From the NCBI GenBank assembly GCA_038049695.1, contig CP142459.1, positions 64,658,001 to 64,722,000 on the forward strand: a DNA stretch of 64,000 nucleotides. The letters are read 5' to 3'. A program made the position numbers and the translations under genes. This document shows, piece by piece, positions 32,111 through 59,294 of this stretch. A model generated the notes under the pieces. It made no database searches, was not told where the DNA came from, and saw only the letters and a list, made by a program, of their open reading frames with translations. How positions within the stretch are numbered: the stretch's first letter is position 1; every line of letters begins with the position of its first letter. Origin of the DNA: Cinnamomum chago. Its lineage: Eukaryota > Streptophyta > Magnoliopsida > Laurales > Lauraceae.

Positions 32111-33194
32111 GCGAAACAGAATTCCCAGCCTTCCTTCCGACATCATCTTCGAAATCCTCCTCCTTCTCCCACCCGAATCCCTCCCGGACCTCAAACGCGT
32201 CTGCAAGCAATGGAAAAACATCATCTCCAGCACCCTTTTCATCGAAACCCAACTCCATGGATCCAACTGCGGGATAATCTACCAGACCCTCATTTCCGAA
32301 GGCAGCTACAAAACCCACTTCGTAGAAATCCAAGAAGGTGGAATCATGACCCGGGATATCGACACAGGTTGGCTAGGCCGCGTTCGAGCTAGCTGCAATG
32401 GCCTCTTGCTGATGGAATGCAAGCCTGATCTCTACATCGTCAATCCCATCACTAAGCAATGGGTAAGGCTTCCTCGTTGTGATATCTCTGACAAATACCC
32501 TCTCCAATATGAAACATATGGGCTTGGATTCAATTCTGAAACTAAAGAGTTTAAAGTAGTGCATTTGTGTGAGTATAAGAAGAAACCTTTTATTGGCTGC
32601 GAGATAATGACAGTTGGGTCTGATTCTTGGAGGGATATTTGCGGACCCTTCTATGGGATGACTCAATTGAAGATTCCCATTACAGCAAATGGGGTTCTGT
32701 ATTGGGCGATGGGGAAGGAGTACTTTGTCTCTATGGATGTGAGTAATGAGAGGTTTTTCAAAATTCCTTTCCCAAATTGCAGATTGGATAGCTATCATAT
32801 GTTGGAATGGGGGGATACTCTGTCTTTGGCAAGTCGTGTGGCGTTGGACCGGATTGATATGTGGGAGTTGAAGGATTTTCATGATGGGAAGTGGGTGAAA
32901 CGGCTGAGCATTGGTGTGGAATGCTTAACAAATTTGGGTTCACTTCCGTTTGCGTGGAGAGCTCCAGGCGTGGGACAGTCCCTTGATCAGGTCTTCCTTC
33001 TTGGGAATTTGAAAGACAGGGAAGTGATCCTCTTTGAGAGGATTCATGGCAGTGGCATTTACGCATATGATTTCAAGAATCAGATAACAAGAGAGTTTGA
33101 AGATTGCATTCATCTGTGTGCATTGAATACATCATCTTGTCCTCTTCATGTCAGTAGCCTCATCACCTGGAGACCTTCCAACAAACTCAAATGA
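32070..33194 (+). CDS. F-box protein with F-box-associated C-terminal domain
   Basis: A single uninterrupted exon encodes 374 aa. Residues 19-60 (PSLPSDIIFEILLLLPPESL then LKRVCKQWKNIISS) form a canonical F-box, which in this family binds SKP1 in an SCF ubiquitin ligase. Residues about 107-330 have the F-box-associated pattern: SCNGLLLMECKPDLYIVNP, TKQWVRLP, YGLGFNSETKEFKVVHL, GSDSWRDI, ANGVLYWAM. This domain recruits the substrate, which cannot be predicted. Intronless F-box genes are common in plants. Two in-frame ATGs arise from a 33-bp duplication, so the protein may begin at 32070 or 11 residues later at 32103; the F-box is intact either way. No close neighbour suggests a pathway. Confidence 0.93.
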   Translation: MRRPISQKSNSMRKRNRIPSLPSDIIFEILLLLPPESLPDLKRVCKQWKNIISSTLFIETQLHGSNCGIIYQTLISEGSYKTHFVEIQEGGIMTRDIDTGWLGRVRASCNGLLLMECKPDLYIVNPITKQWVRLPRCDISDKYPLQYETYGLGFNSETKEFKVVHLCEYKKKPFIGCEIMTVGSDSWRDICGPFYGMTQLKIPITANGVLYWAMGKEYFVSMDVSNERFFKIPFPNCRLDSYHMLEWGDTLSLASRVALDRIDMWELKDFHDGKWVKRLSIGVECLTNLGSLPFAWRAPGVGQSLDQVFLLGNLKDREVILFERIHGSGIYAYDFKNQITREFEDCIHLCALNTSSCPLHVSSLITWRPSNKLK

Positions 33195-34660
33195 GAAGGA
33201 GGTTAACTGATCTTTCTCTTTTCTTTGTAACTGGGAGGGAGGACATTTATACTAGTAGCCTTTTTCAGGAAGAATGCTTGTCCCTTTTTTTACGTTTCTC
33301 ATATGTTTTAGAACTTGACTCTGTTTAGTTAAGGTGTTACATTGTTTTTTCTGGTTATCTACATCTGTTGTCCTGATGACTTTCTTTTAGAAGAAATGTG
33401 ATGTTGAAGTATGTCTCTGTCCTTTTTCTTTTTCTCCTTTCTGCTGGAAAATTCTTACGTCCTGATACACTGATACACTGGTAGTTCAGCGGTGAGGCAC
33501 CTCCCTTTACAAAAACATCCATGGATCAATCCATGGTTGTACCACTGATGCCGATGCCGATGCCGAGGGAATTGGGTGAGTGTGGGTGTGTGAGTATTTT
33601 GCAGAAAAAAGAAGGTACATCTAATCTAATTGAGTTATCTATAATCATAGTTGGCACACCTCTACTTATCAAATTGATGATCGGTGCCTAACTTTATACC
33701 ACATCTTTGCTTGGTTCCCCTTGGTTTGACTTAACTAGGGAACATGTTATTAATAATACACAACCAAATAAGAATCAGGGGCTGGGCAAAAATAACATTA
33801 TACATCTAAAGATTAGAGATTCCTCGCTGAGGATTTGTATAGCTAAGGACTTCACATCAATATCATTGCATATTGATTATATAGCTCAGAGAAATTGGTT
33901 TAAGTGTGCAAAATCTGCAAAAGAAAGGATTTTAGGAGGAGGTTGGACCTGAAATCCTCAGTCTAGATCATTGGGGATTTACAATTGCCAAATGTGGGTT
34001 TTCCATGTCTTGTGGAAAGTGGAAATCTTTTCCTCAAGGATTTGGTTGCCAAACGTGATCTTAGTGTCTATGATGGGATATGTTGCTTAATAACATGATT
34101 AACATGAGTAATGTTGAGATGGTTAATTGTTGAATGAATATTATCAGTCAAGTGTCTCCTCAAACAAATGAGGTCCTCAAGACCATGTATGTTTTCAAGC
34201 AAAAAAAAAAAAATCTATAGTGTTAAGCTTGACATTGAAGATTTGGGAGTGTAGAAGAAAGGCATCACTGGGTGTGTGTGAGCTGAATCCTGGCATATCA
34301 TCAATTTGAGAAAGAAAGTACCTTGTTTGACCAAGCACCTACCTTGACGCCAAGAAACTAGTAAAGTTGTCCAAGATTTTCCTTAGGGTCCATTTCTAAT
34401 TGGTATACAGTTCCTAGGAATCTCTACTAAGGGAGTTCTGTAGGTGTATTATAGAGGTGGGTTTTCATCTTTAATCCACCATTTCTAATCCCTTTAATAG
34501 AAAGGCATTGCTTAAAATCCTAGAAATTTGAAAATTAAACAAACAGACCCTTATGGAAATGGTGATGAACTGATAATGGTCCTATTTGAGGTTTGGATGG
34601 TTTTATTCATACTGCCCGAGGTCACAGGCATAAACCACATCTCATGCTCTCTTGGAAATT

Positions 34661-35103: not shown

Positions 35104-36100
35104 TTTTTTTTTATTTTTTTAATCGGTAACAGAAACTTTCATTAAGAGAAGGAGAGAATACAAAAGGACAAACAACAATGAGGCAAGAACACATAAAAGA
35201 AAGAGAAAAGAAAATCAAACTAAAGGGTACAAGAGCATTGTACCTCATCCAACCCCAATTACATAATAAAACCCTCCCAATGATAGCTTCTCTTCACCCC
35301 TTGCTTGGCTAAAGCATCAGCTATATTGTTGGCTATTCTAAGCTCGTAACAAAGGACAACATTACTTGTAGTAGTGAAAGATCGAATTTCGTTAAAGAGG
35401 AATTGAAATTTCCAAGTAAAAGGCTTCCTATTAGACACCCAAGCAATCGCATTAGATGAATCACTCTCCACCATAAGATCACCTTGGAAGCGTCTTGAAA
35501 AGCATTGGAGGGCTTCCAAAATAGCCAAAACCTCCGCTTCATTAGAATCACAAACACCCACATGCTTTGAAAACATAAACAAGACCTCCCCTTTGCTATT
35601 CCGAATAACACCTCCAATTCATGCCAACTGTAGCACCATCCACATTAAACTTCAACACACTAGAAGAGGGTGGAGACCAAAGAACAACTCTCCTCACTTT
35701 ACTCAATCTGCAACCCATGCACGCTTCCCAATTTAGAAGGATATCATTAAGACTAAAATCGGAGCACTTTTTTTTATGATCAAAGCCCACTTAGCGATCC
35801 TCATAGTTATTCTATTGATCAACACCGAAAGGGAAGAAAAGTTACCCTTAAAAATCCTATCATTCCTTTCCCTCCAAATGGACCATAAAATAACAAAAGG
35901 AATCATTCTCCAAAGACTATGACCACTACCAAGAAAATGTCATCCCATCCACGCCTCCGTTGCCTCTGCAATCTTTTCCAGGCAACACCGCACCTACCAA
36001 TGAAGTGGCCCCAAACACCTGCCGACACCTCACAGCGAAGAAAAAGGTGGTTAACTGATTCCTCCTTCAGTGAAGAAGAAGGTAGTTAATTGATTCTTCA
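35104..36100 (-). pseudogene. 5'-truncated LINE (L1-type) with RNase H and zf-RVT remnants
   Basis: Read on the minus strand, 36060-35800 resembles the zinc-binding region that follows reverse transcriptase (PFVILWSIWRERNDRIFKG). 35790-35596 gives PPSSSVLKFNVDGA, and after a frameshift 35617-35259 gives GGVIRNSKGEVLFMFSK, SNEAEVLAILEAL, VESDSSNAIAW and NNIADALAKQG. This is the RNase H-like (RVT_3) fold with its acidic residues. The element ends in an A-rich tail (T-rich on the + strand, 35104-35121). It lacks the reverse transcriptase core and contains frameshifts, so it is dead. Near 36030-36100 a block of about 35 bp is duplicated. Confidence 0.8.
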
Positions 36101-36266
36101 TTCTCTTCACACATCACACATCACACATCACGCAGAGATCTGAGATACTGGACGACGTTAGCCCTCTTCTTCTCAAGTTGAGATATTGTTATTAAACACA
36201 TTATAATGGACAATCGTCCCCCCCCCCCCCCCGCTCATTCTATAATTTCGTGTAACTTATAGGATG

Positions 36267-36887
36267 TGTTGAGGTCAACGTCTACCCTTGCTCCTGAGCG
36301 GTCATAATTGCCGTCTAGCCCTCGTGCTCACCATAAAACAATTGTTGTGCCATTTTCTATCACCAATTGTTTTTTGGATAAGTGGTAGCTCAATGGGGTG
36401 TAAGATCCTACAAGTGGTATTAGAGTTGCCTCGTAGGTCGGGTGTTCGAGTCACGGGACACGCGAGTTGCGCAGCAAGAGTCGCGGCGGGTGTGCTGTTG
36501 AAGGAGTGATTGTTGAGGTCAACGTCCACCCTCGCTCCTGAGCAGTCATAATTGTGGTTGAGCCCACGCCCTCACTATAAAACAATTGTTGTGCCGTTTT
36601 CCATCACCAATAAATTTTTTGGATAAGTGGTAGCTCAGGGGTGTAAGATCCTACAAGTGGTATCAGAGCCTGGTAGGTTGGGTGTTCGAGCCACGCGACA
36701 TGTATTTTGCGAGTTGCGCAGCAGAGTCGCGGCGGGTGTGCCGTTGAGGTCAACGTCCACCCTTATCCTTGAGCGGTCATAATTGTGGTCGAGCCCTCGC
36801 CCTCACCATAAAACAATTGTTGTGCTGCTTCTTATCACCAATTGGTTTTGGGATAAGTGGTAGCTCAATGAGGTGTAAGTTCCTACA
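36267..36887 (+). mobile_element. TRIM-like element with three LTR-like segments (copy 1)
   Basis: Three near-identical segments of about 146 bp, 36267-36412, 36511-36655 and 36743-36887, begin (TG)TTGAGGTCAACGT and end TCCTACA. Each of the first two is followed after AG by TGGTATYAGAG, the classical primer-binding site complementary to initiator tRNA-Met. The 98-bp internal part ends in a purine-rich GGAGTGAT just before the next LTR. Flanks GGATG and TGATG differ at one base and may be a target-site duplication. There is no coding capacity. A plain 244-bp tandem repeat is the alternative. Confidence 0.75.
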
Positions 36888-39800
36888 TGATGCTTTTTTA
36901 GAGTACATGAGTTTGTATATTTCTTGTGTCCTGATTCTTCATCATACTGGCTTTTAGACTAGTGCAGTTATTCTTATGCCTACATGTTATTTAAATGCCA
37001 ACATAGATGGCCAGAGATCTATATTTGACCATACATTTTGTCTTTCTTTTCCTCTTTTTTAGGTGTCGACGTTGTTGCTGCTACACAATGTGGTATTAAA
37101 GTTGCAAGAATTCCTGGCAAAAATTCAGCATCATGTGCTGAAATGGCCATCTACTTGATGTTGGGCCTTCTTAAAAAACAAGTTTGTTCTTTTTCCTCCT
37201 ACTGATACGTGTCATAATGTATTGCCGTTCACTTCAAAGATTTACATGGCAATGATGTGTGCCCTTTTGGTGTCAGATGTCATTGTAATCTTATATGCAT
37301 TCAAGAACTCATGTCCGGTTTAGATTGAGAACGAAGCTGAAACTGAAGAACAGACAAGGGATCACCCCTTTGCAGACATCACAGCCGATCTAAATAGGTT
37401 TCCTCATCTAAGCTAAATGCAATTGGAAACTATAGATCAGCATGGCATATCAGGAGGATGACAGATATTTTGTTTTTAACTGATTTCTTTTATGCATTAC
37501 TAAAAGATAGGGCCTTATAGGCAGTTGTCACAAATAATCTTGAATGGCTAATAATGACTGAGTTACTGAGTGGAGATTTAAAAACTTCGGTTTTTTATCT
37601 GGTTATTGAAAGGAAAATATTACAGAAGATAAGAACATCTGAATATTATAATATGTATATAAAATAACTTCCTTCCTTTTTGTGTATCAATATAAACACA
37701 GTATAATTTTCTGTACTCTATCAGCAATTCTGTTTTATTATTGTTGAAATGAAGGCAACTAATTATTCTTAACTCAGCTTTAACTGTATGATGGGTCACT
37801 GCACTTGCTCTTTTTTTGCAACAAATTTGTTACATGTTCTCTCTCTTTTTGGTTGTAACTGTTACATATGCTTGAGAACTGATTTTCAACCATGTACTAT
37901 ACTGCTACAGAAGGAGATGGAAGCTGTTTTAAAGATGAAAAGGTTAGGTGAACCAGTTGGTGAAACTCTCCTTGGAAAAACGGTGGGTCATGTTTTCTCA
38001 TGTTTTTTCTGCTGTTTAAGTTTTCTTTGGGTTTATTTTGTCATCTTGAACCGTTACATAATTTCATAACCAAAGTACCAAACAGCTTTAACAGCATCTG
38101 ATTTGTTGGTTTTGCAATTTACCTGTGACGACTTAACTATGTTACAAAGTTGGTAACGGAGAATTGTCGCAAATGTTAATTTATAGTTCAAAAAACTTGG
38201 TGGATTACCAATATAAAAAAAATCTTGGTGGATCTGCAGCATGTACTGCACTTGTATCTTCTGGAACCAGCCTGAACCATTGGACCATAGTATTCTGTAC
38301 GCTCGCTTGCTCTGAATTGGATGATCTGCATCTCCGCGCTTGTTTTGCGTGCATGCATACTTGATATTGATGTTTGTACATGTGCATTGCATGCTGAGCG
38401 CATATTCATGCATTGTATGTTTTTTATGCATTCATGTGCACATTCCACACGCACATCCTTGTTTGTGCGTGCACAGTACAACACTACATTAAAATAGAAA
38501 AAAGTGAGAGTAGTTTAAAGCTAACTAACATAAACTACTTTATTCACTTCATTGTAAAAAAATCTAGAATAAAAAATGTTGCTCATACATGTCAAATAAT
38601 TTATGTCATGAAAATGGAGTCTTGGCCCCAAGTATTTAACATACAAAGTGTTAAATAACATAAGATGGTCACAACCACAAATCAGTCAACACACAATAAG
38701 CATATAGATGGTGATTGTTTAAACTTACTCACCGTTCCAAGAAAAAGGAGGTTCCCTTAATTATTATTTTTTCTTGTATAAGATATTTTCCTAATTGAAT
38801 TGAATCCTAATGAGGTGTGGATTGATATAAATATAGTTATTTTGTCAATCCTGCTACTGTATCTGAAAGAGTAGTTTGGAGTTTTGAATAAAAATGAGTG
38901 AAGGTTAAAGTGACTAAACACTAAAAGCAATGTTTTGAAACATCGGGGCATGACGTGGCATTTCCAATTGCCCAAAGCATGATGTGCAAGCCGTGGGGCA
39001 GCCGTATAAGCATGTAGCGGTGGGCCTAGGACTTATGGGAGCCACTATGTAGAAAATTACAAATGGCCCCTTCCCATTTCTCTTAAAAACAAGATGTGTT
39101 ACTGGGATATTTGCCCCCCATATGGAGTTTGCTTGAAGGATGCCCTTCATCTAGGGCCTACATTTCAAATATCACACATAGTGAGTTATATGCCCCAAAT
39201 ACAAGTCACACCTCATACTTAAGCCCCTGGGTATTTTGGTGATATTTCATGCCGAGCTCAAGGCATAAGCCCCAAATACTTGAAAAAGTACTAACTAGTG
39301 GTAAAAATTGAACCAACATTGCACTACATTGGGCTAACCAATGAAGTTCAATAATCTTCAACAGTACTTGAAATCAGCTGTTTTAGACCCTCCCATATGA
39401 TTTGAGAGAGTGAAAACATGTGTGTGCATTTAATAGTAGAAAATTAAAAATGAAAAAGAGCAACTGAAAGGTAAAGCACAATACATTTTCAGCCATCATA
39501 GACTGCCCTATTCTGGCTGGAATGGACTGAAACCAGGAACAGAAGTTTGTTTTTGTGTTCCGTTCTGGATTCCCTCTGGGATATATTAATTTGGCTAAAA
39601 ATGGCCAGGAATTACCTACTACAAGTTGGAGACCAACCTGCAACTCATGTGCCTACTTCTTTTGCAACCACTTGAGGAAATGTTCTTAACTGCGATCTCC
39701 CAACTAAGGTGATTGGTAAGCTGCACTTTTCACATTCTCCAGATATGCGCCAACATGCCATATGATTTAGCCTGTGCTGCACTAGTATGGACGTGCTTCA

Positions 39801-40017
39801 GAATTTAACACCTGTATCCTTTTGAAAAGCCACAAAAAATTCATATTTTTTTTATTCAGCCTTTATATATACCAAGTTTTAAACATTGGAAAATTTGTAT
39901 AATACTAGTATTGTATTGAATTCTACAATGATAGCTTTCATGGGGTTCTTATTGAAATAGATGGAACACAATTCCAATATGTGTGAATTTATGTTCTCAG
40001 AAATTACAGAAAAAGAA

Positions 40018-40197
40018 CCCTGAGGGGTAGCTCAGTTGGCCTAGGACCACAGTTTGCACCCGGAGGTTGTGGGTTCGAAACTGCACTACCACACTGGGGT
40101 AACAGGGGAATTTTATCTGGCTTTCTCTCCTGGGCCCATAGAGATTATTCTGGCCTAAAGGGCTGGGAACCTGCGTTATAAAAAAAAGAAAAAAAAC
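40018..40197 (+). mobile_element. tRNA-derived SINE (copy 1)
   Basis: 180 bp with an A box (TAGCTCAGTTGG, 40027-40038), a B box (GTGGGTTCGAAACT, about 40069-40082), a non-tRNA body and an A-rich tail. It is flanked by an exact 11-bp target-site duplication CAGAAAAAGAA (40007-40017 and 40198-40208). It lies in intron 4 of the pseudogene. Confidence 0.9.
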
Positions 40198-43100
40198 CAG
40201 AAAAAGAAAAGATAAACAAAAAAACTTTTATGTCAAAATCTGTGGGTTGCTAGATTACAAACTTGTCTATTACAAGCATTTTCACTGTTCGACTTATGAA
40301 TCATTGCAATGTAGAGTATAGGGAATGACTTGCTGTTGGAATAACTCTGTTGCTTCATCAGCCATTTTTTCTTAAAAATTTAAAGCTTGGAGCAGGTCCT
40401 ACCTACATCTAAAACCATGATAGAAACTGTCACAAACTGTAACAGTTTGTGAAACTGTCATCTCAAGGGCATCATGCTTACCCCCTACCTCCTTGGATCT
40501 TATTGCATTCAACAATAATAGAAACTGTCACAAACAGTTAACAGTTTGTGAAACTGTTATCTCAAGGGCACCATTTACAATGGCATCACCGTTACACCCT
40601 ACCTCCTTGGATCTCATTGCATTCAACAATTCCATTTGGCCAGGCTGCCCTGATGATAGATGCCATACTACTGGCTTTTGTGTATACGTGGACACATTCT
40701 TATAACTTGGAGTGCAAAGAAACAAGCAACTGTGGCCTGATCCAGCACTGAGTCCGAGTACTAATCCCTTGCTGCCTTGCATTCATTGTGGCCGATCTAG
40801 CTTGGATTCGAACTCTTCTCAAGCATCTCAATATTTAGATTCCCACCGGTTATTTGGTGTGATAACATCAGTGCAATTGCCTTGACGGTCAATCCCGTTT
40901 ATTACTAACACAAAACACACTGAAATTGATTATCATTTGATTGAATGTGTTATTCGTAGAGATCTAAATGTTTGTTTTGTTTCTTCTCAAGACCGGGTCG
41001 TTGGATATAATTACCAAGGACTTCCATGCCCCAAATTTTTTATATTTGGGACAAGCTAACCCTGAAGGACCTCCCTTCTAGCTAAAGGGAGTATCTTGGA
41101 GCAGATCCTGACTAGTTTAAAACTGTAAAAGAAACATTCACAAACCACAACTGTTTCTGAAGCTCTCACACATTTCTCAACTGTGACTAACTGTAACAAT
41201 TTCTGAAACTGTTTCCTCTATATATACTGTGTAGCACAACAGGCTTTTTGCATTTCAATGCAGTGAATTTTATTGTGTCTAGTCTTATTATAAAGAAGTC
41301 AGAAATTGATATTCATAGCTGTCTTTAGCCATTGGCCCTTTTATAGTTAATCACTTATATATTGATTTCATTTCATGTAATACTATGAATTATGTAACAG
41401 AGATTCTGTTTCGCCCCATGTAGGTCTTTATTATGGGATTTGGAGCTATTGGGCGTGATCTGGCCAAGCATCTGCGGCCATTTGGGGTGAGGATCCTTGC
41501 AACTAAACGGAGCTGGGCCTCAGAACAGCCAGAATCTAACCAATCAAATGGTATGAGACAAGTATTTATATCAGCTATAAAGTGAGTTGCGACAAGAAAC
41601 ATGACATGGAACCTCTGATTCACTATTTATTAGGTTCTGCTGTTAGATCTGCCACTTTGAGCATGGAAAGTGATGGCAATGATAATCTGGTTGATAAGAA
41701 AGGTGGCCCTGAAAATCTTTTTGAATTTGCCAGGGAGGCAGACATAGTTGTTACTTGCTTGGCCCTGAATCCTGAAACGGTGAATTCCATGTCCTTTATA
41801 TTTTTCCTTCCTTTTCTTTTACATGCCACAATACATCCATTATGTTACTGTCTGACACCCAAGTACATGTGGCCGATTCAACTTTTAGGCGGGCATAGTG
41901 AACCAGAAACTCCTCTCGTCAATGAGACAGGTTTGCAATTTATAACTTCACCAATCTTTTATCCGTTTCCATAACTTCAGTGATGCATATGAATAGAGTA
42001 ACCTTATGTTTATATTTTAAGGCTTCCACTTTCTGAACATGGAATTTGATTGGAACAGAAGAAAACGTCGGAAACTGGTTTATGTTAGCATTTACTTGTG
42101 TCTGCACTCAGAAGCTTATCTGCTCACGCCCACAAATGCTTTCTACTACTATTTTTCTTTTTAATAAAAAAGAGAGTAAACTACCATGCATCAACGAAAG
42201 CATGGTCAATGTTCTGATATGGTAAAAGGCATATGCATATTTTTGATAGGGCTATTCCCACGGATGTGTAGTCTGACAATACTTGTTCAACATCGCCAGA
42301 GGCCTTTTCTGATCAATTTGGGGCCGACTAAAAGATTTCTACTCTAAAAACTCCCAACCAAGCAATGACCACAACATATGTGAATGATATTGCCATGGTT
42401 ACGTTGAAAATCCTACTGATGCTTCCCTCCGGAGGTGGAGGCCATTTAACTAGTATTCAGCCAATGGGGAATACCCACCCAATAAATGGGAAAAGATGAA
42501 CACGCTGTGCTGTTTATTAAATGAAAAGCATAATGTTGTTTGTGCTTGAAACAATGAGAAACGATCATATCTTGACACAAGGACCATCCTAATGATTGTC
42601 TGTTTGACAAGTGGAGGGCTCACCTTTGGTTGGTTCAACCCATTCAACTCACATCCACTCCTTGTATTAACGCTGGTCCAAATTTCACTCTGACCAAAGT
42701 GATTTATGCGGTTGGATTGATCAGGTCTTATAACCTCTGATACCCAGATACTTGCAAATGGGCAACGTATCTTGTTTGATATGTATATGATACCTCACTT
42801 TTTGTGCAAAAGCATGTCCCAAATCCTTGGCATGTCCCTGCCACATCCATGATCCATGCCATATGTGAGCACCCTAGCTTATAACTATACTCTGAATAGG
42901 TGTAGATTGTGACGTGGTGGATGCTATGAAGTGGTCACCATGACTCATGTAGCTTATATGCAGACTTATCTTCGGAGAAAGTATTCTTTAGCTTATTTGA
43001 AAAAGTGCTCCTCATATTTATTTTGGACAAGTTGGCTGATCTAGATCAATCCAACCCTCAAAAACACCCATCCTCTATGAAGTGGTCATCATAACTCATG

Positions 43101-43595
43101 TAGCTTATATGCAGGCTTCTCTTAGGAGAAAATATTCTGTAGCTTATTTGAAAAAGTTTACCTATTTATTTTAGACAAGTTGGCCGACCCATGATGAATC
43201 CAACCCTCACAAACACCTATCCTCTATGAATTGGTACCTAACCAAATTGGATAATCATCTAACTATGGATTCACAAGAAAGACTTCACTTACTAAACCAA
43301 TAAAATTTGAAGATCCTGAGATCAAGGGTGAGGATCATTTAATTGGAAGGTATTTGGCCAACTCCTATTCCACATCAAGCCCTTTATTCTCCTACCCACT
43401 GATAGGGTGAGGTGGGGTTTGGAATAGGTTGCCCGTGCTTGTCATTTTTTCATTGTTTGGTGCAGCGCTTTTCCGCGCAAGAAGAGGAAAAACTGAACTA
43501 TTTTTTCCTTTAAATATGTAGAAAACCATTTCCTGTGTAAGGGAGTAGGAATTCCTATTCCGCGGCATCATGGAAAAGGAATTCGTGGTGCCATA

Positions 43596-45262
43596 TGTTG
43601 GAAGTAGGTGGGCCTCGTGAATAGGTTTTCAAAACTTTTGACCCACTTAACTCAGGGATCAAATACCCATAAGGCCATAAACCACATCCAGGATCCAATC
43701 CCTCCGTCTCATTAATCATGTACAGTAATAAATTCTATCTAGAAGATAGAAATCAGCAATACCATGCAACAAAAAACAATCCACAACAAATAAAGAGGTA
43801 GATTATACCTTTGGAGCCCGGTAGTGCTCTAATGGAGAAGAAGACTTGCTTGATGAAGAAACTATTTCTTTTTAAGCAACTTAGGATCTCCAAGACCTCT
43901 TAGCCTTCCACGCTATGACACGTATCAGATCTCTTTTCTCAAGAAAATTGGTGGAAACTCCAAGAGAAAACCAACTAGAAACTCTAAGGAACTAGAAGAG
44001 AGAAGAGGAGAGAGGGGCGTGCAACAACTTGCACTGGGCGTGGGATCCAAGTGTGTACGTCCAAGGGGTCTCCCTCCTCTATTTATAGCACAAAGCAACC
44101 TCCTCTTACTAATTAAAATAGAAGTCCAACTTCCATTAAGAATTAGTAACCATCTCATTTCTAATTATTATAGAAGTCTCACTTCCACAACAATTAGTAA
44201 ATTACGATTACCACTTCAAATAGAAATAGTAACTTTCTAATTCCTTCCTTTTAGAGTTCAAGTAAGATTAGTATCTTTCTAATAACTTGGGCTAGCGTGG
44301 GGACCATTAGGGATTCCATAGAAAGCTGGCTCCAATTAGGACATCGCGACCCCACATCTCATGTGCAATCTGGGCCCACAGTTAATTGCAAATAACACCA
44401 CTATATAAATGCAATTGCACTCCAGTCTTAGGAATATATTACAATGAAGACCCTAAACTTCTCAATTACCACAAGTAGGCCTCTCTATCAATATCCATGG
44501 ATCAATTGGATTAAATCCGTCACTTTCAATCTTAGATCCATATCTTATTATCCTTGAGCCCCAATTAATCACAGCGATCATCAGTATAATCCAATTAACT
44601 CTTAATCGAGATGGGTGCGCACTTACTAATGATAAAACCATTAATTGACACAAGGGGATAATATAGATAGATTCTATCTTGACCATTGGATGTTCTCACA
44701 GTCGTACTACTACGTACTCAAAACACCTAGCTGTTAACCTACAGTTGGCCTCACTCATTGGTGTCTCAAAGCAAATGAATAGATAGAAACTTAAGTTCAT
44801 CAATGTCTCAAGATTGAGAGCCTATTGCTTAGGGAATTATGAGAGCAGACTTTAAAATCGAGACAATATTCCATAAGGTGCTTCTCATGATCATTCAATA
44901 CATCTAATGTACCAACACCATGATCCAGAATCTTATATTCTGATGATCGAGACAAATCATACTATCTCATAGTGATCAAAGATGATATGTCCAGTCTCAT
45001 CACTGGTTGTGAAGATATTTAAGTATAAGATTTGTGACACATGTCTCCCGTATGTGGATCTCATCCATACACATATATCACATCTAATATACTAATGGGA
45101 CTCGGTTCATCCCATAAACTATCATGTCATATGTATTGGTCATGTGCATTAAGTAATAAAACATCATTCATCTCATGAAATGAAAGCATGATTTTATTGA
45201 TAAATAAAGAAATTAATCAATTTATTACATCATCTGATGGATTGAGTCCATACAATCTAACA
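43596..45262 (-). mobile_element. Solo LTR of a copia-type retrotransposon
   Basis: 1667 bp, absent at the matching point of copy 2 (57410-57416, GTGCCACAGAG). The ends are TGTTGGA and TCTAACA. It is flanked by CCATA (43591-43595) and CCACA (45263-45267), a 5-bp target-site duplication with one substitution; copy 2 keeps CCACA. On the minus strand a TATA box (CTATAAATAG, about 44080-44090) lies roughly two thirds of the way in, as expected of an LTR promoter in that direction. I saw no internal coding region or repeated LTR. It sits between exon equivalents 7 and 8. Confidence 0.85.
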
Positions 45263-46284
45263 CCACAGAGTTTCAGCTTTGCACAAATGTGCCCTTAGTG
45301 TAGTCTAGATGCATGTATGGTTTAGTTGGATAGGAAGGGATTGCATAAATCGCATCTGGCTCACATATCATTTTGTTCCGTTGATCATAACCATCTCATG
45401 TGAGCTCCTTGAGATGATAACCAGCGATTCAACCATAACTGCTCCATGATTTTTTGGTAAAATCATTTAAATAATTTGAGAAGTGTTATCATTTGATTGT
45501 AACGATATGCTTGCTCTTACAATTCTAGATCTCACACTCTAATCTGCTAGATCATACATTACCTAATCTAGCTTTTGCTTTGTCTCCAGGGTTCCCTCCT
45601 AGTAAATATTGCTCGAGGAGGTCTCCTGGACTATGAGTCTGTCAAACATCATCTTGAGTCTGGTCACTTGGGTGGATTAGCCTTTGATGTTGCCTGGACG
45701 AACCCTTTGATCCCGAGGATCCAATACTGAAGTTTCCAAATGTTCTAGTCACACCTCACGTCGCTGGTATCACTGAGTTTTCTTACAAAACAATGGCTAA
45801 GGTATTGTCTAAGCAATCTTTATCGTGCTTCAAATTTTTTATGGTTATGTTGCACGTTTTAGTCTCAGTCGTTAGCTTCGAAGGGCCAGAGTACAAAGTT
45901 GGAATTTCATTGACAGGCTAGCTACTGCATTCAGTTATCAAAAAGGTAATCATGGAAAAAGGAATTTATGTGGCTTCAAGGTAGAACTTTTCAAAATTAA
46001 CAAAAAGAAAAATGGTAAAAAGTGTGAAATACCCTCGCTGAGGATGGGGTGCTTCGTTCTTCTTTATCCTTTGATGTATAGTTTGTATCGAGATTTCTTG
46101 TGTTTTTTGTTCTTTTGGGTTTTCCCCTCTTATTAATAAATTTTACTGTTTTTTTTTTTTTTTTTTAATGTGAAATACCCAGGCCATGAGGTCAACAAGA
46201 TGATAGAAAGTAGATACTAAACTACCATGAGATGTACGCCTTATGAACTTGGCTGCTATGCTCCCTTATTTTAAATAATATATA

Positions 46285-46420
46285 TACACTGGTTTATAGA
46301 TACTAATACTACTACTATCGCTGTAGTTGTCGGTGGTGTTGTGGTTGTGGTTCTTTGTGCTGCTGTTGTCTTGACTCTTGTGGTTCCTGTTGTTTTTGTT
46401 GTTGTTGGTGGTTGGGGACC
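46285..46420. repeat. TAC/GTT/GTG-rich simple repeat (copy 1)
   Basis: Interrupted trinucleotide-like DNA in intron 8 of the pseudogene. The matching tract at about 58445-58565 differs in length by short slippage changes. Confidence 0.7.
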
Positions 46421-47152
46421 ATGCACTTGAACTGAGCATAATGTTGATACTGAAAAGTCAGAAATTGTAATGCCAGAACAATAAGGTTAATGTGGGATTG
46501 GGTGCTTTTCTCTATATATCCCGAACTGGTAGTCTCATTCTCATTGGATACATCGATGCATTCTTCTGATTTTTTTTTCTTCTAGTCACTGACATATCTC
46601 AAAGCAAAGTACTTTCCATAAAATCTATCATTTAGACAGGTGCAGGTGTATCCCGATGAGGCAATGGCGAAGTCGCTGCTGCTTCTGATTGTTTTCTTCT
46701 TTCAATGTTGCAGGTAGTTGGTGATTGCGCTCTTCAACTTCATGCAGGGGATCCACTGACTGGAATTGAGTTTGTGAATTGAAGAAGAAACTGCAAAGTA
46801 CAAGGATCCCTGACTTACTGTTTCAATTCCCATTACCAATTTACCCTGGAAACATGAGGATGTATTTGGTGAACGCTGCCCATCCCATGCAGATTGTGAA
46901 TTGGATAAATTACTAAAAGCATGTACTTCTTGTTCTGACTCCCATTTACCAATTTACTATGAAACAAAGAGAATATTTTTGATTAACAATCTCATACCTC
47001 TTTCTGAACAACCTGGTTAAGTGAATGTAGAAGTAATTCTCATTGAAAAGTTGTCTTGGGGCATAAACCATTTCAGTACAACCATGTAAATCTATCACAA
47101 CTGGAAGTCTTATCATTATTGTTTCCTTTTACGAAATTTCTTACCATTGTTC

Positions 47153-49237: not shown

Positions 49238-49823
49238 ATATTCTTCCCTCCAAGTGCGAGATTCTTACGTACCAGGTTCGGTGTCTTCCTACCAAACCCT
49301 GTCTCTTCTCGAATCTCGATCGAATGCATCGTCAAATATTAAGGCTGCTCAAACCCCCAAAACCTCACCTGCCTTCCCTTCTCTCTCTCTTTCTTTCAAG
49401 GTAATAGAAGAAGAAGAAGAAATGCAATATCATCTATAAAATCACTCATTTCTTTCTCCTCTTTGTCGATTGACCTCATAAATCTCTCGATACTTTTTCC
49501 TCTTCTTCTTCCCCAAATTTGTATCCTTTGCGTTTTAGGTCAGACTCGAAAACCAAATTAGTCTATAGGTCAATTCATTCTGTCTTTAGTAATGGAGTTA
49601 TTGTATGCTATAACATGAATTTACCTCTTCATCTCCAAAATGCCAATGTCCTGAAACTAAAACTACAGAAGTAGCGGCTTTCAATCTTTTCCTTTTTAAA
49701 ATTTTTTTTTTTTTTTGGGGTTCTTCTTTTTAAGCAGCACAAGAAAAACCATTGTTGCTGGATATTTAAGCTTTATAGATGATGTTCCAGTGCAGGTTTT
49801 CAAACCAAGTTGAGATTGAGAAA
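49238..49823 (+). promoter_or_regulatory. Promoter and leader region of the dehydrogenase gene
   Basis: CT-rich DNA (49379-49395) is followed by a possible leader-exon end at TCAAG|GTAATA (49400/49401). A possible acceptor GTGCAG|GTTTTC at about 49795 would leave a short leader before ATG 49824. The promoter begins almost directly at the end of the Mutator-type element. The transcription start was not placed. Confidence 0.45.
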
Positions 49824-52800
49824 ATGGCAGGGAACAGTGACAATCACATCACCCAAGTTCTCTTTTGTGGGCCTTATTGGCCTGCTTCTCAAAATTACAC
49901 AAGAGATTATTTGCGGAGTTATCCATATATTCAGGTAACCTGACATACCCATTGCTTTTTTCTTTAAAATCATCTGCCCAAGAAAATCTGATCCATCGAA
50001 AGCCCATTTGATAGCACAAATAGAATGTTGCCTTTCAATATTCCTCCTTCACCCTGTATCTTCTCACCCAGTGTGCAGAAGAGAACACTTCTGCTTCTTT
50101 TCATGGTATTATCTTTGATTGAAAGGAGAGTAATAGATGTTTGATGAGATGTGTTTTGCAAATGTTTGGTTCGAGCAGCGACTGTTTGTTATTTCTTTTT
50201 TCAATCTCCTGCATGTTAGAATTTCACGAGGCATTGTTTATTTTATGCTTTTATTTGCGTGAAATGTAAGTCATGGCTAGGTTCTTTGGTTGTGAATTGG
50301 TTCTTCAAGTGTTGCAGGTTGATGATGTGCCCCTGAATGATGTGCCTGATGTTATTGACAAATACCATCTTTGTGTGGTAAAAAACCTGGGGCTGGATTC
50401 ACAAGTAATCGCTCGTGCAAAACAGATGAAGCTTATAATGCAGTTTGGTGTTGGACTGGAAGGTTACCCCCCCCCCCCCCTCATTCTATAATTCTGTGTA
50501 ACTTATAGGATGTGTTGAGTTCAACATCCACCCTTACTTCTGAGCGATTATAATTGTGGTCGAGCCCTCACTCTCACCATAAAACAATTGTTGTGCCGTT
50601 TTCTATCACCAATTGTTTTTTGGATAAGTCGTAGCTCAATGGGGTGTAAGATCCTACAAGTGGTATCAGAGCCTGGTAGGTCGGGTGTTCGACACGCGTT
50701 TTGCGAGTTGCATAGCAGGAATCGTGGCGGTTGTGCCATTGAGGGAGTGATTGTTGAGGTCAACGTCCACCCTTGCTCTTGAGCAATCATAATTGTGGTC
50801 GAGCAGTTATTCTTATTTCTACATGTTATTTAAATGCCAACATAGATGGCCAGAGATCTATATTTGACCATACATTTTGTCTTTCTTTTCCTTTTATTTA
50901 GGTGTTGACGTTGTTGCTGCTACACAATGTGGTATTAAAGTTGCAAGAATTCCTGGCAGTGTGACTGGAAATTCAGCATCGTGTGCTGAAATGGCCATCT
51001 ACTTGATGTTGGGCCTTCTTAAAAAACAAGTTTGTTCTTTTTCCTCCTACTGATACGTGTCATAATGTATTGCCGTTCACTTCAAAGATTTACATGGCAA
51101 TGATGTGTGCCCTTTTGGTGTCAGATGTCATTGTAATCTTATATGCATTCAAGAACTCATGTCCGGTTTAGATTGAGAACGAAGCTGAAACTGAAGAACA
51201 GACAAGGGATCACCCCTTTGCAGACATCACAGCCGATCTAAATAGGTTTCCTCATCTAAGCTACATGCAATTGGAAACTATAGATCAGCATGGCATATCA
51301 GGAGGATGACAGATATTTTGTTTTTAACTGATTTCTTTTATGCATTACTAAAAGATAAGGCCTTATTGGCAGTTGTCACAAATAATCTTGAAAGGCTAAT
51401 AATGACTGAGTTCCTGATTGAGGATTTAAAAACCTCGGTTTTGTATCTGGTTATTAAAAGGAAAATATTACAGAAAATAAAAACATCTGAATATTATAAT
51501 ATGTATATAAAATAACTTCCTTCCTTTTTGTGTATCAATATAAACACAGTATAATTTTCTGTACTTTATCAGCAATTCTGTTTTGTTATTGTTGAAATGA
51601 AGGCAACAAATTATTCTTAACTCAGCTTTAACTGTTTGATGAGTCGCTGCACTTACTCTGTTTTTGCAACAAATTTGTTACATGTTCTCTCGCTTTTTGG
51701 TTGTAACTGTTACATATGCTTGAGAACTGATTTTTAACCATGTACTATGCTGCTACAGAAGGAGATGGAAGCTGTTTTAAAGATGAAAAGGTTAGGTGAA
51801 CCAGTTGGTGAAACTCTCCTTGGAAAAACGGTGGGTCATGTTTTCTCATGTTTTTTCTGCTGTTTGAGTTTTCTTTCGGTTTATTTTGTCATCTTGAACC
51901 ATTACATAATTTCATAACCAAACAGCTTTAACAGCATCTGATTTGTTGGTTTTGCAATTTACCTGTGACGACTTAACTATGTTACAAAGTTGGTAACTGA
52001 GTATTGTGGCAAATGTATATTTATAGTTCAAAAAGCTTGGTGGATTACCAATAAAAAAATATCTTCGTGGATCTGCAGCATGTACTGCACATGTGTCTTC
52101 TGAAACCAGCCTGAACCATTGGACCATAGTATTCTGTACACTCGCTTGCTCTGAATTGGATGATCTGCATCTCCGCGCTTGTTTTGTGTGCATGCATGCT
52201 TGATATTGATGTTTGTACATGTGCATTGCATGCTGAGCACATATTCATGCATTGTATGTTTTTTATGCATTCATGTGCACATTCCACACACACATCCTTG
52301 TTTGTGCACAGTACAACACTACATTAAAATAGAAAAAGTGAGAGTAGTTTAAAGCTAACTAACATAAACTACTTTATTCACTTCATTGTAAAAAGATCTA
52401 GAATAAAAAATGTTGCTTATACATGTCAAATAATTTATGTCATGAAAATGGAGTCTCGGCCCCAAGTATTTAACATACAAAGTGCTAAATAACATAAGAT
52501 GGTCACAACCACAAATCAGTCAACACACAATAAGCATATAGATGGTGATTGTTTAAACTTACTCACTGTTCCAAGAAAAAAGAGGTTCCCTTAATTATTA
52601 TTTTTTCTTGTATAAGATATTTTCCTAATTGAATTGAATCCTAATGAGGTGTGGATTGATATAAATATAGTTATTTTGTCAATCCTGCTACTGTATCTGA
52701 AAGAGTAGTTTGGAGTTTTGAATAAAAATGAGTGAAGGTTAATGTGACTAAACACTAAAAGCAATGTTTTGAAATCGGGGCATGAGGTGGCATTTCCAAT

Positions 52801-55800
52801 TGCCCAAAGCATGAAGTGCAAGCCGTGGGGCGGCCTTATAAGCATGTAGCGGTGGGCCTAGGACTTGTGGGAGCCACTATGTAGAAAATTACAAATGGCC
52901 CCTTCCCTTTTCTGTTAAAAACAAGATGTGTTACTGGGATATTTGCCCCCCATATGGAGTTTGCTTGAAGGATGCCCTTCATCTAGGGCCTACATTTCAA
53001 ATATCACACATAGTGAGTTATATGCCCCAAATACAAGTCACACCTCATACTTGAGCCCCTTGGTATTTTGGTGATATTTCATCCCGTGCTCAAGGCATAA
53101 GCCCCAAATACTTCAAAAAGTACTAACTAGTGGTAAAATTTGAACCAACATTTCACTACATTTGGCTAACCAATGGAGTTCAATAATCTTCAACAGTACT
53201 TGAAATCAGCTGTTTTAGACCCTCCCATATGATTTGAGAGAGTGAAGACATGTGCGCACATTTAATAGTAGAAAATTAAAAATGAAAAGGAGGTAAAGCA
53301 CAATACATTTTCAGCTATCATAGACTGCCCTATTCTGGTTGGAATGGACTGAAACCTGGAACAGAAGTTTGTTTTTGTGTTCCATTCTGGATTCCCTCTG
53401 GGATATATTATTTTGGCTAAAAACGGCCAGGAATTACCTACTACAATTTGGAGACCAACCTGCAACTCATGTGCCTACTTCTTTTGCAACCACTTGAGGA
53501 AATGTTCTTAACTGCGATCTCCCAACTGAGGTGATTGGTAAGCTGCACTTTTCACGTTCTCCAGATATCCGCCAACATGCCATATGATTTAGCCTGTGCT
53601 GCACTAGTATGGACGTGCTTCTGAATTTAACACCTGTATCCTTTTGGAAAACCACAAAAAATTCATATTTTTTTTTATTCAGCCTTTATATATAGCAAGT
53701 TTTAAACATTGGAAATTTTGTATAATACTAGTATTGTATTGAATTCTACAATGATAGCTTTCATGGGGTTCTTATTGAAATAGATGGAACACAATTCCAG
53801 TATGTGTGAATTTATGTTCTCAGAAATTACAGAAAGAGAACCCCGAGGGGTAGCTCAGTTGGCCTAGGACCACGGTTTGCACCCGGAGGTTGTGGGTTCG
53901 AAACTGCACTATCACACTGAGGCAACAAGGGAATTTTATCTGGCTTTTTCTCCTGGGCCCGTATGGATTATTCTGGCCCAAAGGGTTGGGAACCTTGCGT
54001 TATATAAAAAAAAAAGATAAACAAAAAACTTTTATGTCAAAATCTGTGGGTTGCTAGATTACAAACTTGTCTACTACAAGCATTTTCACTGTTCGACTTA
54101 TGAATCATTGCAATGTAGAGTATAGGGAATGACTTGCTGTTGGAATAACTCTGTTGCTTCATCAGCCATTTTTTCTTAAAAATTTAAGGCTTGGAGCAGG
54201 TCCTACCTACATCTAAAACCATGATAGAAACTGTCACAAACTGTAACAGTTTGTGAAACTGTCATCTCAAGGGCATCATGCTTACCCCCTACCTCCTTGG
54301 ATCTTATTGCATTCAACAATAATAGAAACTGTCACAAACAGTTAACAGTTTGTGAAACTGTTATCTCAAGGGCACCATTTACAATGGCATCACCGTTACA
54401 CCCTACCTCCTTGGATCTCATTGCATTCAACAATTCCATTTGGCCAGGCTGCCCTGATGATAGATGCCATACTACTGGCTTTTGTGTATACGTGGACACA
54501 TTCTTATAACTTGGAGTGCAAAGAAACAAGCAACTGTGGCCTGATCCAGCACTGAGTCCGAGTACTAATCCCTTGCTGCCTTGCATTCATTGTGGCCGAT
54601 CTAGCTTGGATTCGAACTCTTCTCAAGCATCTCAATATTTAGATTCCCACCGGTTATTTGGTGTGATAACATCAGTGCAATTGCCTTGACGGTCAATCCC
54701 GTTTATTACTAACACAAAACACACTGAAATTGATTATCATTTGATTGAATGTGTTATTCGTAGAGATCTAAATGTTTGTTTTGTTTCTTCTCAAGACCGG
54801 GTCGTTGGATATAATTACCAAGGACTTCCATGCCCCAAATTTTTTATATTTGGGACAAGCTAACCCTGAAGGACCTCCCTTCTAGCTAAAGGGAGTATCT
54901 TGGAGCAGATCCTGACTAGTTTAAAACTGTAAAAGAAACATTCACAAACCACAACTGTTTCTGAAGCTCTCACACATTTCTCAACTGTGACTAACTGTAA
55001 CAATTTCTGAAACTGTTTCCTCTATATATACTGTGTAGCACAACAGGCTTTTTGCATTTCAATGCAGTGAATTTTATTGTGTCTAGTCTTATTATAAAGA
55101 AGTCAGAAATTGATATTCATAGCTGTCTTTAGCCATTGGCCCTTTTATAGTTAATCACTTATATATTGATTTCATTTCATGTAATACTATGAATTATGTA
55201 ACAGAGATTCTGTTTCGCCCCATGTAGGTCTTTATTATGGGATTTGGAGCTATTGGGCGTGATCTGGCCAAGCGTCTGCGGCCATTTGGTGTGAGGATCC
55301 TTGCAACTAAACGGAGCTGGGCCTCAGAACAGCCAGTATCTAACCAATCAAATGGTATGAGATAAGTATTTATATCAGCTATAAAGTGAGTTGCAACAAG
55401 AAACATGACATGGAACCTCCGATTCACTATTTATTAGGTTCTGCTGTTAGATCTGCCACTTTGAGCATGGAAAGTGATGGCAATGATAGTCTGGTTGATA
55501 AGAAAGGTGGCCCTGAAAATCTTTTTGAATTTGCCAGGGAGGCAGACATAGTTGTTACTTGCTTGGCCCTGAATCCTGAAACGGTGAATTCCATGTCCTT
55601 TATATTTTTCCTTCCTATTTTTTTACATGCCACAATACATTCATTATGTTACTGTCTGACACCCAAGTACATGTGGCTGATTCAACTTTTAGGCGGGCAT
55701 AGTGAACCAGAAATTCCTCTCGTCAATGAGACAGGTTTGCAATTTATAACTTCACAAATCTTTTATCAGTTTCCATAACTTCAGTGATGCATATGAATAG

Positions 55801-58800
55801 AGTAACCTTATGTTTATATTTTAAGGCGTCCACTTTCTGAACATGGAATTTGATTGGGACAGAAGAAAACGTCAGAAACTGGTTTATGTTAGCATTTACT
55901 TGTGTCTGCACTCAGAAGCTTATCTGCCCCCCATGCCCACAAATGCTTTCTCCTACTTTTTTTTTTTTTTTTTTTTTTTTATAAAAAAGAGAGTAAACTA
56001 CCATGCATCATCGAAAGCATGGTCAATGTTCTGATATGGTAAAAGGCATATGCATATTTTTGATAGGGCTATTCCCACGGATGTGTAGTCTTGACAATGC
56101 TTGATCAACATCGCCAGAGGCCTTTTCTGATCAATTTGGGGTCGACTAAAAGATTTCTACTCTAAAAACTTCCAACCAAGCAATGACCACAACATATGTG
56201 AATGATATTGCCATGGTTACGTTGAAAATCCTACTGATGCTTCCCTCCGGAGGTGGAGGCCATTTAACTATTATTCAGCCAATGGGGAATACCCACCCAA
56301 TAAATGGGAAAAGATGAACACAATGTGCTGTTTATTAAATGAAAAGCATAATGTTGTTTGTGCTTAAAACAATGAGAAACGATCATATCTTGACACAAGG
56401 ACCATCCTAATGATTGTCTGTTTGACAAGTGGAGGGCTCACCTTTGGTTGGTTCAACCCATTCGACTCACATCCACTCCTTGTATTAACGCTGGTCCAAA
56501 TTTCACTCTGACCATAGTGATTTACGCGGTTGGATTGATCAGGTCTTATAACCTCTGATACCCAGATACTTGCAAATGGGCATTGTATCTTGTTTGATAT
56601 GTATTTGATACCTCACTTTTTGTGCAAAACCATGTCCCTTCCAAATCCTTGGCACGTCCCTGCCACATCCATGATCCATGCCATATGTGAGCACCCTAGC
56701 TTATAAGTATATTCTGAATAAGTGTAGATTGTGACGTGGTGGATGCCATGAAGTGGTCATCATGACTCATGTAGCTTATATGCAGACTTATCTTAGGAGA
56801 AAATATTCTTTAGCTTATTTGAAAAAGTGCTCCTCATATTTATTTTGGACAAGTTGGATGATCTAGATCAATCCAACCCTCAAAAACACCCATCCTCTAT
56901 GAAGTGGTCATCATAACTCATGTAGCTTATGCAGGCTTCTCTTAGGAGAAAATATTCTGTAGCTTATTTGAAAAAGTTTTCCTCATTTATTTTAGACAAG
57001 CTGGCCGACCCATGATGAATCCAACCCTCACAAACACCTATCCTCTATGAATTGGTACCTAACCAAATTGGATAATCATCTAACTATGGATTCACAAGAA
57101 AGACTTCACTTACTAAACCAATAAAATTTGAAGATCTTGAGATCAAGGGTGAGGATCATTTAATTGGAAGGTATTTGGCCAACTCATATTCCACATCAAG
57201 CCCTTTATTCTCCTACCCAAAGATAGGGTGAGGTGGGGTTTGGAATAAGTTGCCCTTGCTTGTCATTTTTTCATTATTTAGTGCAACGCTTTTCCGTGCA
57301 AGAAGAGGAAAAACTGAACTATTTTTTTCTTTAAATATGTGGAAAACCATTTCCTGTATAAGGGAGTAGGAATTTCTATTCCGCGGCATCATGGAAAAGG
57401 AATTCGTGGTGCCACAGAGTTCCAGCTTTGCACAAACGTGCCCTTAGTGTAGTCCAGATGCATGTATGGTTTAGTTGGATAGGAAGGGATTTGCATAAAT
57501 CGCATATGGCTCACATATCATTTTGTTCCGTTGATCATAACCATCTCATGTGAGCTCCTTGAGATGATAACCTGTGATTCAACCACACCTGCTCCATGAT
57601 TTTTTTGGTAAAATCATTTAAATAATTTGAGTAGTGTTATCATTTGATTGTAATGATATGCTTGCTCTTACAACTCTAGATCTCACACTCTAATCTGCTA
57701 GATCATACATTAGCTAATCTTGCTTTTGCTTTGTCTCCAGGGTTCCCTCCTAGTAAATATTGCTCGAGGAGGTCTCCTGGACTATGAGTCTGTCAAACAT
57801 CATCTTGAGTCTGGTCACTTGGGTGGCTTAGCCCTTGATGTTACCTGGACTGAACCCTTTGATCCTGACGATCCAATACTGAAGTTTCCAAATGTTCTAG
57901 TCACACCTCACGTCGCTGGTGTCACTGAGTTTTCTTACAGAACAATGGCTAAGGTATTGTCTAAGCAATCTTTATCATACTTCAAATTTTTTATGGTTAT
58001 GTTGCACGTTCTAGTTGTTAGCTTCAAAGGGCCAGAGTACAAAGTTGGAATTTCATTGACAGGCTAGCTACTGCATTCAGTTATCAAAAAGGTAATCATG
58101 GAAAAAAGAATTTATGTGGCTTCAAGGTAGAACTTTTCAAAATTAACAAAGAGAAAAATGGTAAAAAGTGTGAAATACCCTCGCTGAGGATGGGGTGCTT
58201 CGTTCTTCTTTATCCTTTGATGTATAGTTTGTATCGAGATTTCTTGTGTTTTTTGTTCTTTTGGGTTTTCCCCTCTTATTAATAAATTTTACTGTTTTTT
58301 TTTTTTTTTTTGAATGTGAAATACCCAGGCCATGAGGTCAACAAGATGATAGAAAGTAGATCCTAAACTACGATGAGATGTACGCCTTATGAACTTGGCT
58401 GCTATGCTCCCTTATTTTAAATAATATATATAAACTGGTTTATAGATACTAATACTACTACTATCGCTGTAGTTGTCGGTGGTGTTGTGGTGGTGTTGTG
58501 GTTGTGATTCTTTGTGCTGCTGTTGTCTCGACTCTTGTGGTTCCTGTTGTTTTTGTTGTTGGTGGGGGTCCATGCACTTGAACTGAGCATAATGTTGATA
58601 CTGAAAAGTCAGAAATTGTAATGCCGGAACAATAAGGTTAATGTGGGATTGGGTGCTTTTCTCTATATATCCTGAACTGGTAGTCTCATTCTCATTGGAT
58701 ACATCGATGCATTCTTCTGATTTTTTTTTTTCCAGTCACTGACATATCTCAAAGCAAAGTACTTTCCATAAAATCAATCATTTAGATAGGTGCAGGTGTA

Positions 58801-58923
58801 TCCCATGGCGAAGTCGCTGCTTCTTCTGATTGTTTTCTTCTTTCAATGTTGCAGGTAGTTGGTGATTGTGCTCTTCAACTTCATGCAGGGGATCCACTGA
58901 CTGGAATTGAGTTTGTGAATTGA
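49824..58923 (+). CDS. D-isomer-specific 2-hydroxyacid dehydrogenase (At1g72190-like)
   Basis: Nine exons: 49824-49934, 50318-50462, 50902-51029, 51759-51830, 55228-55354, 55438-55583, 55693-55734, 57741-57953 and 58855-58923. All junctions are GT-AG and in phase, giving 350 aa. The Rossmann NAD(P)-binding motif GFGAIG is at residues 157-162. The catalytic triad of the family is present: Arg266 (NIARGG), Glu295 (TWTEPFDPDDP) and His314 (TPHVAG). The C-terminus is ALQLHAGDPLTGIEFVN. It resembles the plant family typified by Arabidopsis At1g72190 (from memory), oxidoreductases of 2-keto/2-hydroxyacids with no firmly known substrate. There is no obvious transit peptide, so it is probably cytosolic (inference). 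Start: AAAATGG at 49824, the first ATG ahead of the conserved TQVLFCGP. Exon 7 is only 42 bases. A truncated tandem copy lies upstream and a decayed one downstream. Confidence 0.94.
50513..50806 (+). mobile_element. TRIM-like element, shortened (copy 2)
   Basis: One full LTR-like segment (50513-50658), a primer-binding site (TGGTATCAGAGCC, 50661-50673), the internal part, and a second LTR-like segment starting at 50752 that is cut at about 50806. The cut joins sequence equivalent to about 36964 in copy 1, at a shared GCAGTTATTCTT. The element therefore predates the duplication, and copy 2 later lost part of it. It lies in intron 2. Confidence 0.75.
53841..54014 (+). mobile_element. tRNA-derived SINE (copy 2)
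   Basis: The same SINE as at 40018, in intron 4, with A box TAGCTCAGTTGG and B box GTGGGTTCGAAACT. The right target-site duplication has been lost by shortening of the A-rich tail. Confidence 0.85.
55959..55980. repeat. Poly-T tract
   Basis: A run of about 22 T in intron 7. The matching place in copy 1 (about 42150) is a mixed TTTTTCTTTTTAAT, so the tract expanded or contracted after duplication. Confidence 0.8.
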
Positions 58924-59294
58924 AGAAGAAACTGCAAAGTCCAAGGATCCCAGACTTACTGTTTCAATTCCCATTACCAATTTACCCTGGAAACATGAGG
59001 ATGTATTTGGTGAACGCTGCCCATCCCATGTAGATTGTGAATTGGATAAATTACTAAAAGCATGTACTTGTTGTTCTGACTCCCATTTACCAATTTACAA
59101 TGAAACCAAGAGAATCTTTTTAATTAACAATCTAATACCTCTTTCTGAACAACCTGGTTAAGTGAAGGCAGAAGTAATCCTCATTGAAAAGTCGTCTTGG
59201 GGCATAAACCATTTCAGTACAACCATGTAAATCTATCACAACTGGAAGTTTTATCATTATTGTTTCCTTTTACTAAATTTCTTACCATTGTTCG

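Follow-up and report, generated by a model that had tools for sequence, protein, structure and literature searches.

A 1.1-kb identical tract in a dehydrogenase gene and its truncated neighboring copy, very probably left by recent gene conversion

The window analyzed here, a 64-kb stretch (C9:64658001-64722000) of a 14-contig, 1.06-Gb assembly whose gene content points to a plant, contains two copies of a dehydrogenase gene, A and B, which lie 13.8 kb apart in the same orientation. Self-BLAST of the window aligned A 36964-43593 with B 50803-57414 at 96.2% identity (block 1) and A 45263-47152 with B 57412-59293 at 95.1% identity (block 2), in both cases on the same strand, and a further stretch at the left ends of the two copies matched at 87% identity. 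Over the 6582 aligned columns of block 1, copies A and B differ by 178 substitutions and 16 gaps. The features of the two copies are as follows.

36218-47152, plus strand: copy A, a duplicated block with a predicted 5'-truncated pseudogene (self-BLAST, exon comparison, junctions)
40015-40200, plus strand: tRNA-derived SINE-like element in intron 4, present in both copies, left of the identical tract (sequence, bins)
43596-45262, no strand assigned: solo-LTR-like element inserted in intron 7, restricted to copy A (1667 bp, TG...CA ends)
49824-58923, plus strand: copy B, a predicted gene of nine exons encoding a 350-aa D-isomer-specific 2-hydroxyacid dehydrogenase (open frame, borders, Pfam)
49824-49934, 50318-50462, 50902-51029, plus strand: exons 1 to 3 of B (open frame)
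51759-51830, 55228-55354, 55438-55583, plus strand: exons 4 to 6 of B (open frame)
55693-55734, 57741-57953, 58855-58923, plus strand: exons 7 to 9 of B, the last with the stop codon (open frame)

According to our analysis, copy B is apparently a working dehydrogenase gene. Its frame is open across all exons, AG/GT borders are present at all eight introns, and its protein matches the Pfam families 2-Hacid_dh_C (PF02826; 1.1e-41, 142.6 bits against a curated cut-off of 25.1) and 2-Hacid_dh (PF00389; 2.4e-13, 50.4 bits against a curated cut-off of 24.6). Among solved structures, the closest in sequence are glycerate dehydrogenase/glyoxylate reductases and phosphoglycerate dehydrogenases. Exon 1 of B with its borders (window 49718-50120) also occurs at four other genomic places at 98-99% identity, among five matches listed including the locus itself, with match lengths of 403 bp on contigs C6 and C9 and 390-391 bp on C8 and C4. 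Each of these additional matches sits in a larger repeated stretch common to these places, one end of which follows a TA repeat at three of the four loci and AT-rich sequence at the fourth. One repeat copy harbors a SWIM zinc-finger open reading frame (L039:8422-9306, minus strand), which we take to fit a Mutator-like transposase, and the exon 1 repeats look like the capture of a gene fragment by a DNA transposon.

Copy A, instead, is deemed a pseudogene, since it is without exons 1 and 2, which were sought there and not found, is shorter than B by 9 bp in exon 3 and by 1 bp in exon 8, a frameshift followed by stops, and is interrupted by the 1667-bp insertion; its exons do not form one open frame. 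The original prediction, made from the letters of the window, had described A and B as two diverged paralogs; the divergence holds, whereas a second working paralog in A does not, the intact gene being B. The insertion is flanked by the 5-bp sequences CCATA and CCACA, which differ at one base, is absent from B near position 57414, and is probably a solo LTR, a label that we assume from its structure. The element at 40015-40200, presumed to be a SINE from its tRNA-like head and A-rich tail, falls in the 200-column bin with the highest divergence (15 substitutions), and its counterpart in B matches dispersed places which, self excluded, are 73-93% identical among the matches listed.

The edges of copy A are a poly-C run on the left and position 47152 on the right. 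The poly-C run that opens the copy (36218-36232) matches the poly-C at 50467-50480, just inside intron 2 of B; these two are the only runs of at least nine C or G in the window, each at the left edge of a duplicated block. Tandem units of about 240 bp occupy the left ends, an estimated 2.7 units in A (36221-36887) and 1.3 in B (50467-50804). One unit of A and one of B contain TGGTATCAGAGC, which we take to resemble the primer-binding site of plant LTR elements. Upstream of copy A lies an F-box gene (32130-33195) with F-box-associated/beta-propeller domain matches, and beside its left edge, on the minus strand at 35259-35618, a fragment of a reverse-transcriptase-like/RNase H domain (RVT_3), which is probably a retroelement relic.

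Within block 1, one stretch stands apart, and a shorter one was considered as a second candidate.

40385-41469, no strand assigned: putative converted tract in copy A (1085 bp, 0 differences to 54189-55273)
54189-55273, no strand assigned: the same tract in copy B (identity to A, exon comparison)
40295-40384, no strand assigned: stretch by which the tract may extend to the left (its single difference is at 40384; where the HMM puts the left edge varies with the settings)
37134-37415, no strand assigned: second candidate tract, the end of exon 3 and part of intron 3 (282-bp identical run)

The longest identical run in the A/B alignment, 1085 bp, contains neither a substitution nor a gap, although about 35 differences would be expected over its columns, and it covers the 3' portion of intron 4 and reaches 46 bp into exon 5. 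The next-longest runs of block 1 measure 282, 161, 138, 135, and 127 bp. Outside the tract, blocks 1 and 2 pooled give 235 substitutions in 7365 columns, about 3.2% (3.26% as the A-B distance). An identical stretch from about 40387 to 41469, mostly intron plus the start of exon 5, with only two differences between 40269 and 40386 and recurrent differences beyond, had been predicted from the sequence. The run indeed spans 40385-41469 against 54189-55273, with only 46 bp exonic; the bordering differences fall at 40270 and 40384 on the left, with 41470 the first on the right, and differences return to their ordinary density from there and left of 40200. Divergence along the aligned copies, a check that the same prediction had proposed, is not uniform, since the 1085 columns of the tract hold no difference and every 1085-column stretch wholly outside it (left, right, or in block 2) holds 24 to 49 substitutions. 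In both flanks the divergence is back at 3%, and the solo-LTR-like insertion and the truncation remain confined to A. At 39%, the GC content of the tract falls between the 36% of the left flank and the 40% of the right one. With hand-chosen rates and transitions, a two-state HMM assigned the tract peak posteriors exceeding 0.99 under each of nine settings, with the left edge at 40295-40394 and the right edge at 41447-41449. The right border of the tract is sharp, and the left one is placed within about 100 bp.

A search of the genome with the tract returned itself, its partner, a partial third copy (C) and another small piece, both on contig C2, together with at least 36 weaker matches of 66-81% identity among the 40 matches listed. 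Copy C (C2:24576843-24577697, minus strand) aligns without gaps to A 41012-41866 and so covers 458 bp of the 1085-bp tract and 397 bp to its right. It provides, within the same genome, the comparison copy proposed by the original prediction, with ordinary divergence from A and B over the 458 bp. The bases private to A, B, and C number 0, 0, and 10 in the covered tract and 5, 5, and 5 in the flank. Changes private to A and B taken together are therefore depleted in the tract (0/458 against 10/397 in the flank; Fisher P = 4e-4), whereas those private to C are not (10/458 against 5/397; Fisher P = 0.43), and the 10 positions at which A and B agree against C compare with about 11.5 expected under conversion. 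Since the divergence of C is no lower in the covered tract than in the flank, the identity of A and B there is not attributable to selection or to a low mutation rate, and the covered part of the tract is, on this sequence comparison, neither slow nor constrained. The relation among the three copies is star-like and fixes the place of C in the tree only loosely. We also sought the direction of conversion by means of copy C, but because A and B are identical throughout the tract, neither is singled out as the donor.

Copy C looks like a dead fragment and apparently sits inside an intron of an unrelated gene. Two of its ten private bases fall at the acceptor border of exon 5 (41423-41424), at which the AG is intact in A and B. 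About 640 bp from C, the second piece (L010:8334-8497, minus strand, 164 bases) matches window 41242-41407; as it carries both C-private bases within its range (41275 and 41280), it probably arose by local copying of C or stems from the same source. The 40 kb around copy C contain two C or G runs of at least nine (L010:6625-6651 and 8110-8131), both about 420 bp or less from the larger fragment, and four other loci (40 kb) contain one. The duplications may have been set off by breaks at runs of this kind.

Recent gene conversion between A and B, as originally predicted, is very probably the best explanation of the 1.1-kb tract, and it is supported by the tract statistics and by the ordinary divergence of copy C. 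That the differences simply cluster by chance is a negligible prospect: there is moderate clustering outside the tract (variance/mean of 1.6 per 100 bp), but when the 178 differences of block 1 were permuted, the longest run had a median of 201 and a maximum of 545, and none of 20,000 permutations reached 1085. The same held for an overdispersed null with gamma-distributed rates, fitted outside the tract at three block sizes with 3000 simulations each, where the largest run was 868 and none of the simulations reached 1085 at any block size (0/9000 in total). It is also highly improbable that strong constraint or a mutational cold spot holds the tract identical. The tract does touch exon 5, which we take to code for the glycine-rich nucleotide-binding motif; however, of the 458 tract positions covered by copy C, 10 are changed in it, a share no lower than in its flank, in line with the original argument that selection does not explain identity in an intron. 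Moreover, all but 46 bp of the tract is noncoding, and A, a predicted pseudogene without exons 1 and 2 and with a frameshift, is not expected to be under selection.

An artefact of assembly or read correction, in which 1.1 kb of one copy would have been assembled or corrected with reads from the other, is unlikely, if less so than chance or constraint. Copies that are 96% alike and 13.8 kb apart are a setting prone to such an error, yet the ordinary density of differences is kept on both sides of the tract. False haplotype duplication was rejected, as the copies differ in their neighbors and in structure, A being without exons 1 and 2 and carrying the solo LTR. We likewise discarded a mobile element with one end at the left border, suggested by CTTGGAGCAG at 40386, which recurs at 41095, because the identity continues into exon 5, because A and B have both repeats at matching places, and because C, starting at 41012, has the right-hand repeat.

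Under gene conversion, a block of about 8.8 kb would have been duplicated to a same-strand site 13.8 kb away, after which a divergence of about 3% would have built up between the copies. Later, a break in either copy would have been repaired with the other as template, on the same chromatid, the sister, or the homologue, so that 1.1 to 1.2 kb (part of intron 4 and the start of exon 5) were pasted one way without exchange of the flanks. Double-strand break repair from an ectopic template leaves one contiguous patch with its flanks kept apart. We infer both this non-reciprocal repair and the recent date of the event. The divergence accumulated since then has a 95% upper bound of 0.28%, or about 8.5% of the A-B distance of 3.26%; with assumed rates of 1e-9 to 7e-9 mutations per year, the duplication would date back some 2-16 million years and the conversion less than 0.2-1.4 million years. 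The age that divergence gives for this duplicate depends on which part is used. Possibly, although we lean against it, pseudogene A was the donor, in which case about 1.1 kb of the working gene B (part of intron 4 and the start of exon 5) would have been overwritten without breaking the gene, and the locus would offer one case of a pseudogene acting as a live sequence reservoir.

The 282-bp run may represent a second, smaller conversion event, for which the evidence is suggestive only. The original prediction had noted an identical stretch at 37133-37414; its identity stands, with coordinates shifted by one (37134-37415), whereas a conversion event is not established, the run having P = 0.066 under a uniform null, 0.013 under the same null with the main tract removed, and 0.10-0.29 under the overdispersed nulls. 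It is thus significant only with the main tract removed, and clustering of the differences can account for a run of this length. Its HMM posterior ranges from 0.32 to 0.88 and exceeds 0.5 in six of nine settings.

Gene conversion is a well-known process, and the A/B event, which opens no new question, is an ordinary example of it, although with a tract that is long for a plant. A rice survey (Xu et al. 2008, PMC2277409) detected 377 conversions among 626 families, with tracts averaging 130 nt (range, 4-1237); pseudogenes took part in 28 of 50 LS-family and 70 of 327 HS-family events, which we sum to 98 of 377. Like these interlocus (ectopic) conversions, the A/B event left one identical tract in diverged copies, on the same chromosome, at short distance, and with a pseudogene partner; unlike the cases as described there, its tract lies near the top of the length range and is mostly intronic. 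Passages in a review (Mansai et al. 2011, PMC3924818) quote average tract lengths of about 200-500 bp for yeast and 287-296 bp for rodent cells; the A/B tract, at about 1085 bp, is longer than these, while resembling the paralog conversions treated there as the copy-and-paste of one contiguous stretch. In contrast to the rice survey as described, a third, independent fragment of the genome served as a check on the A/B tract, and the locus offers a clean, single-event conversion between a gene and a pseudogene with an internal control copy elsewhere in the same genome.
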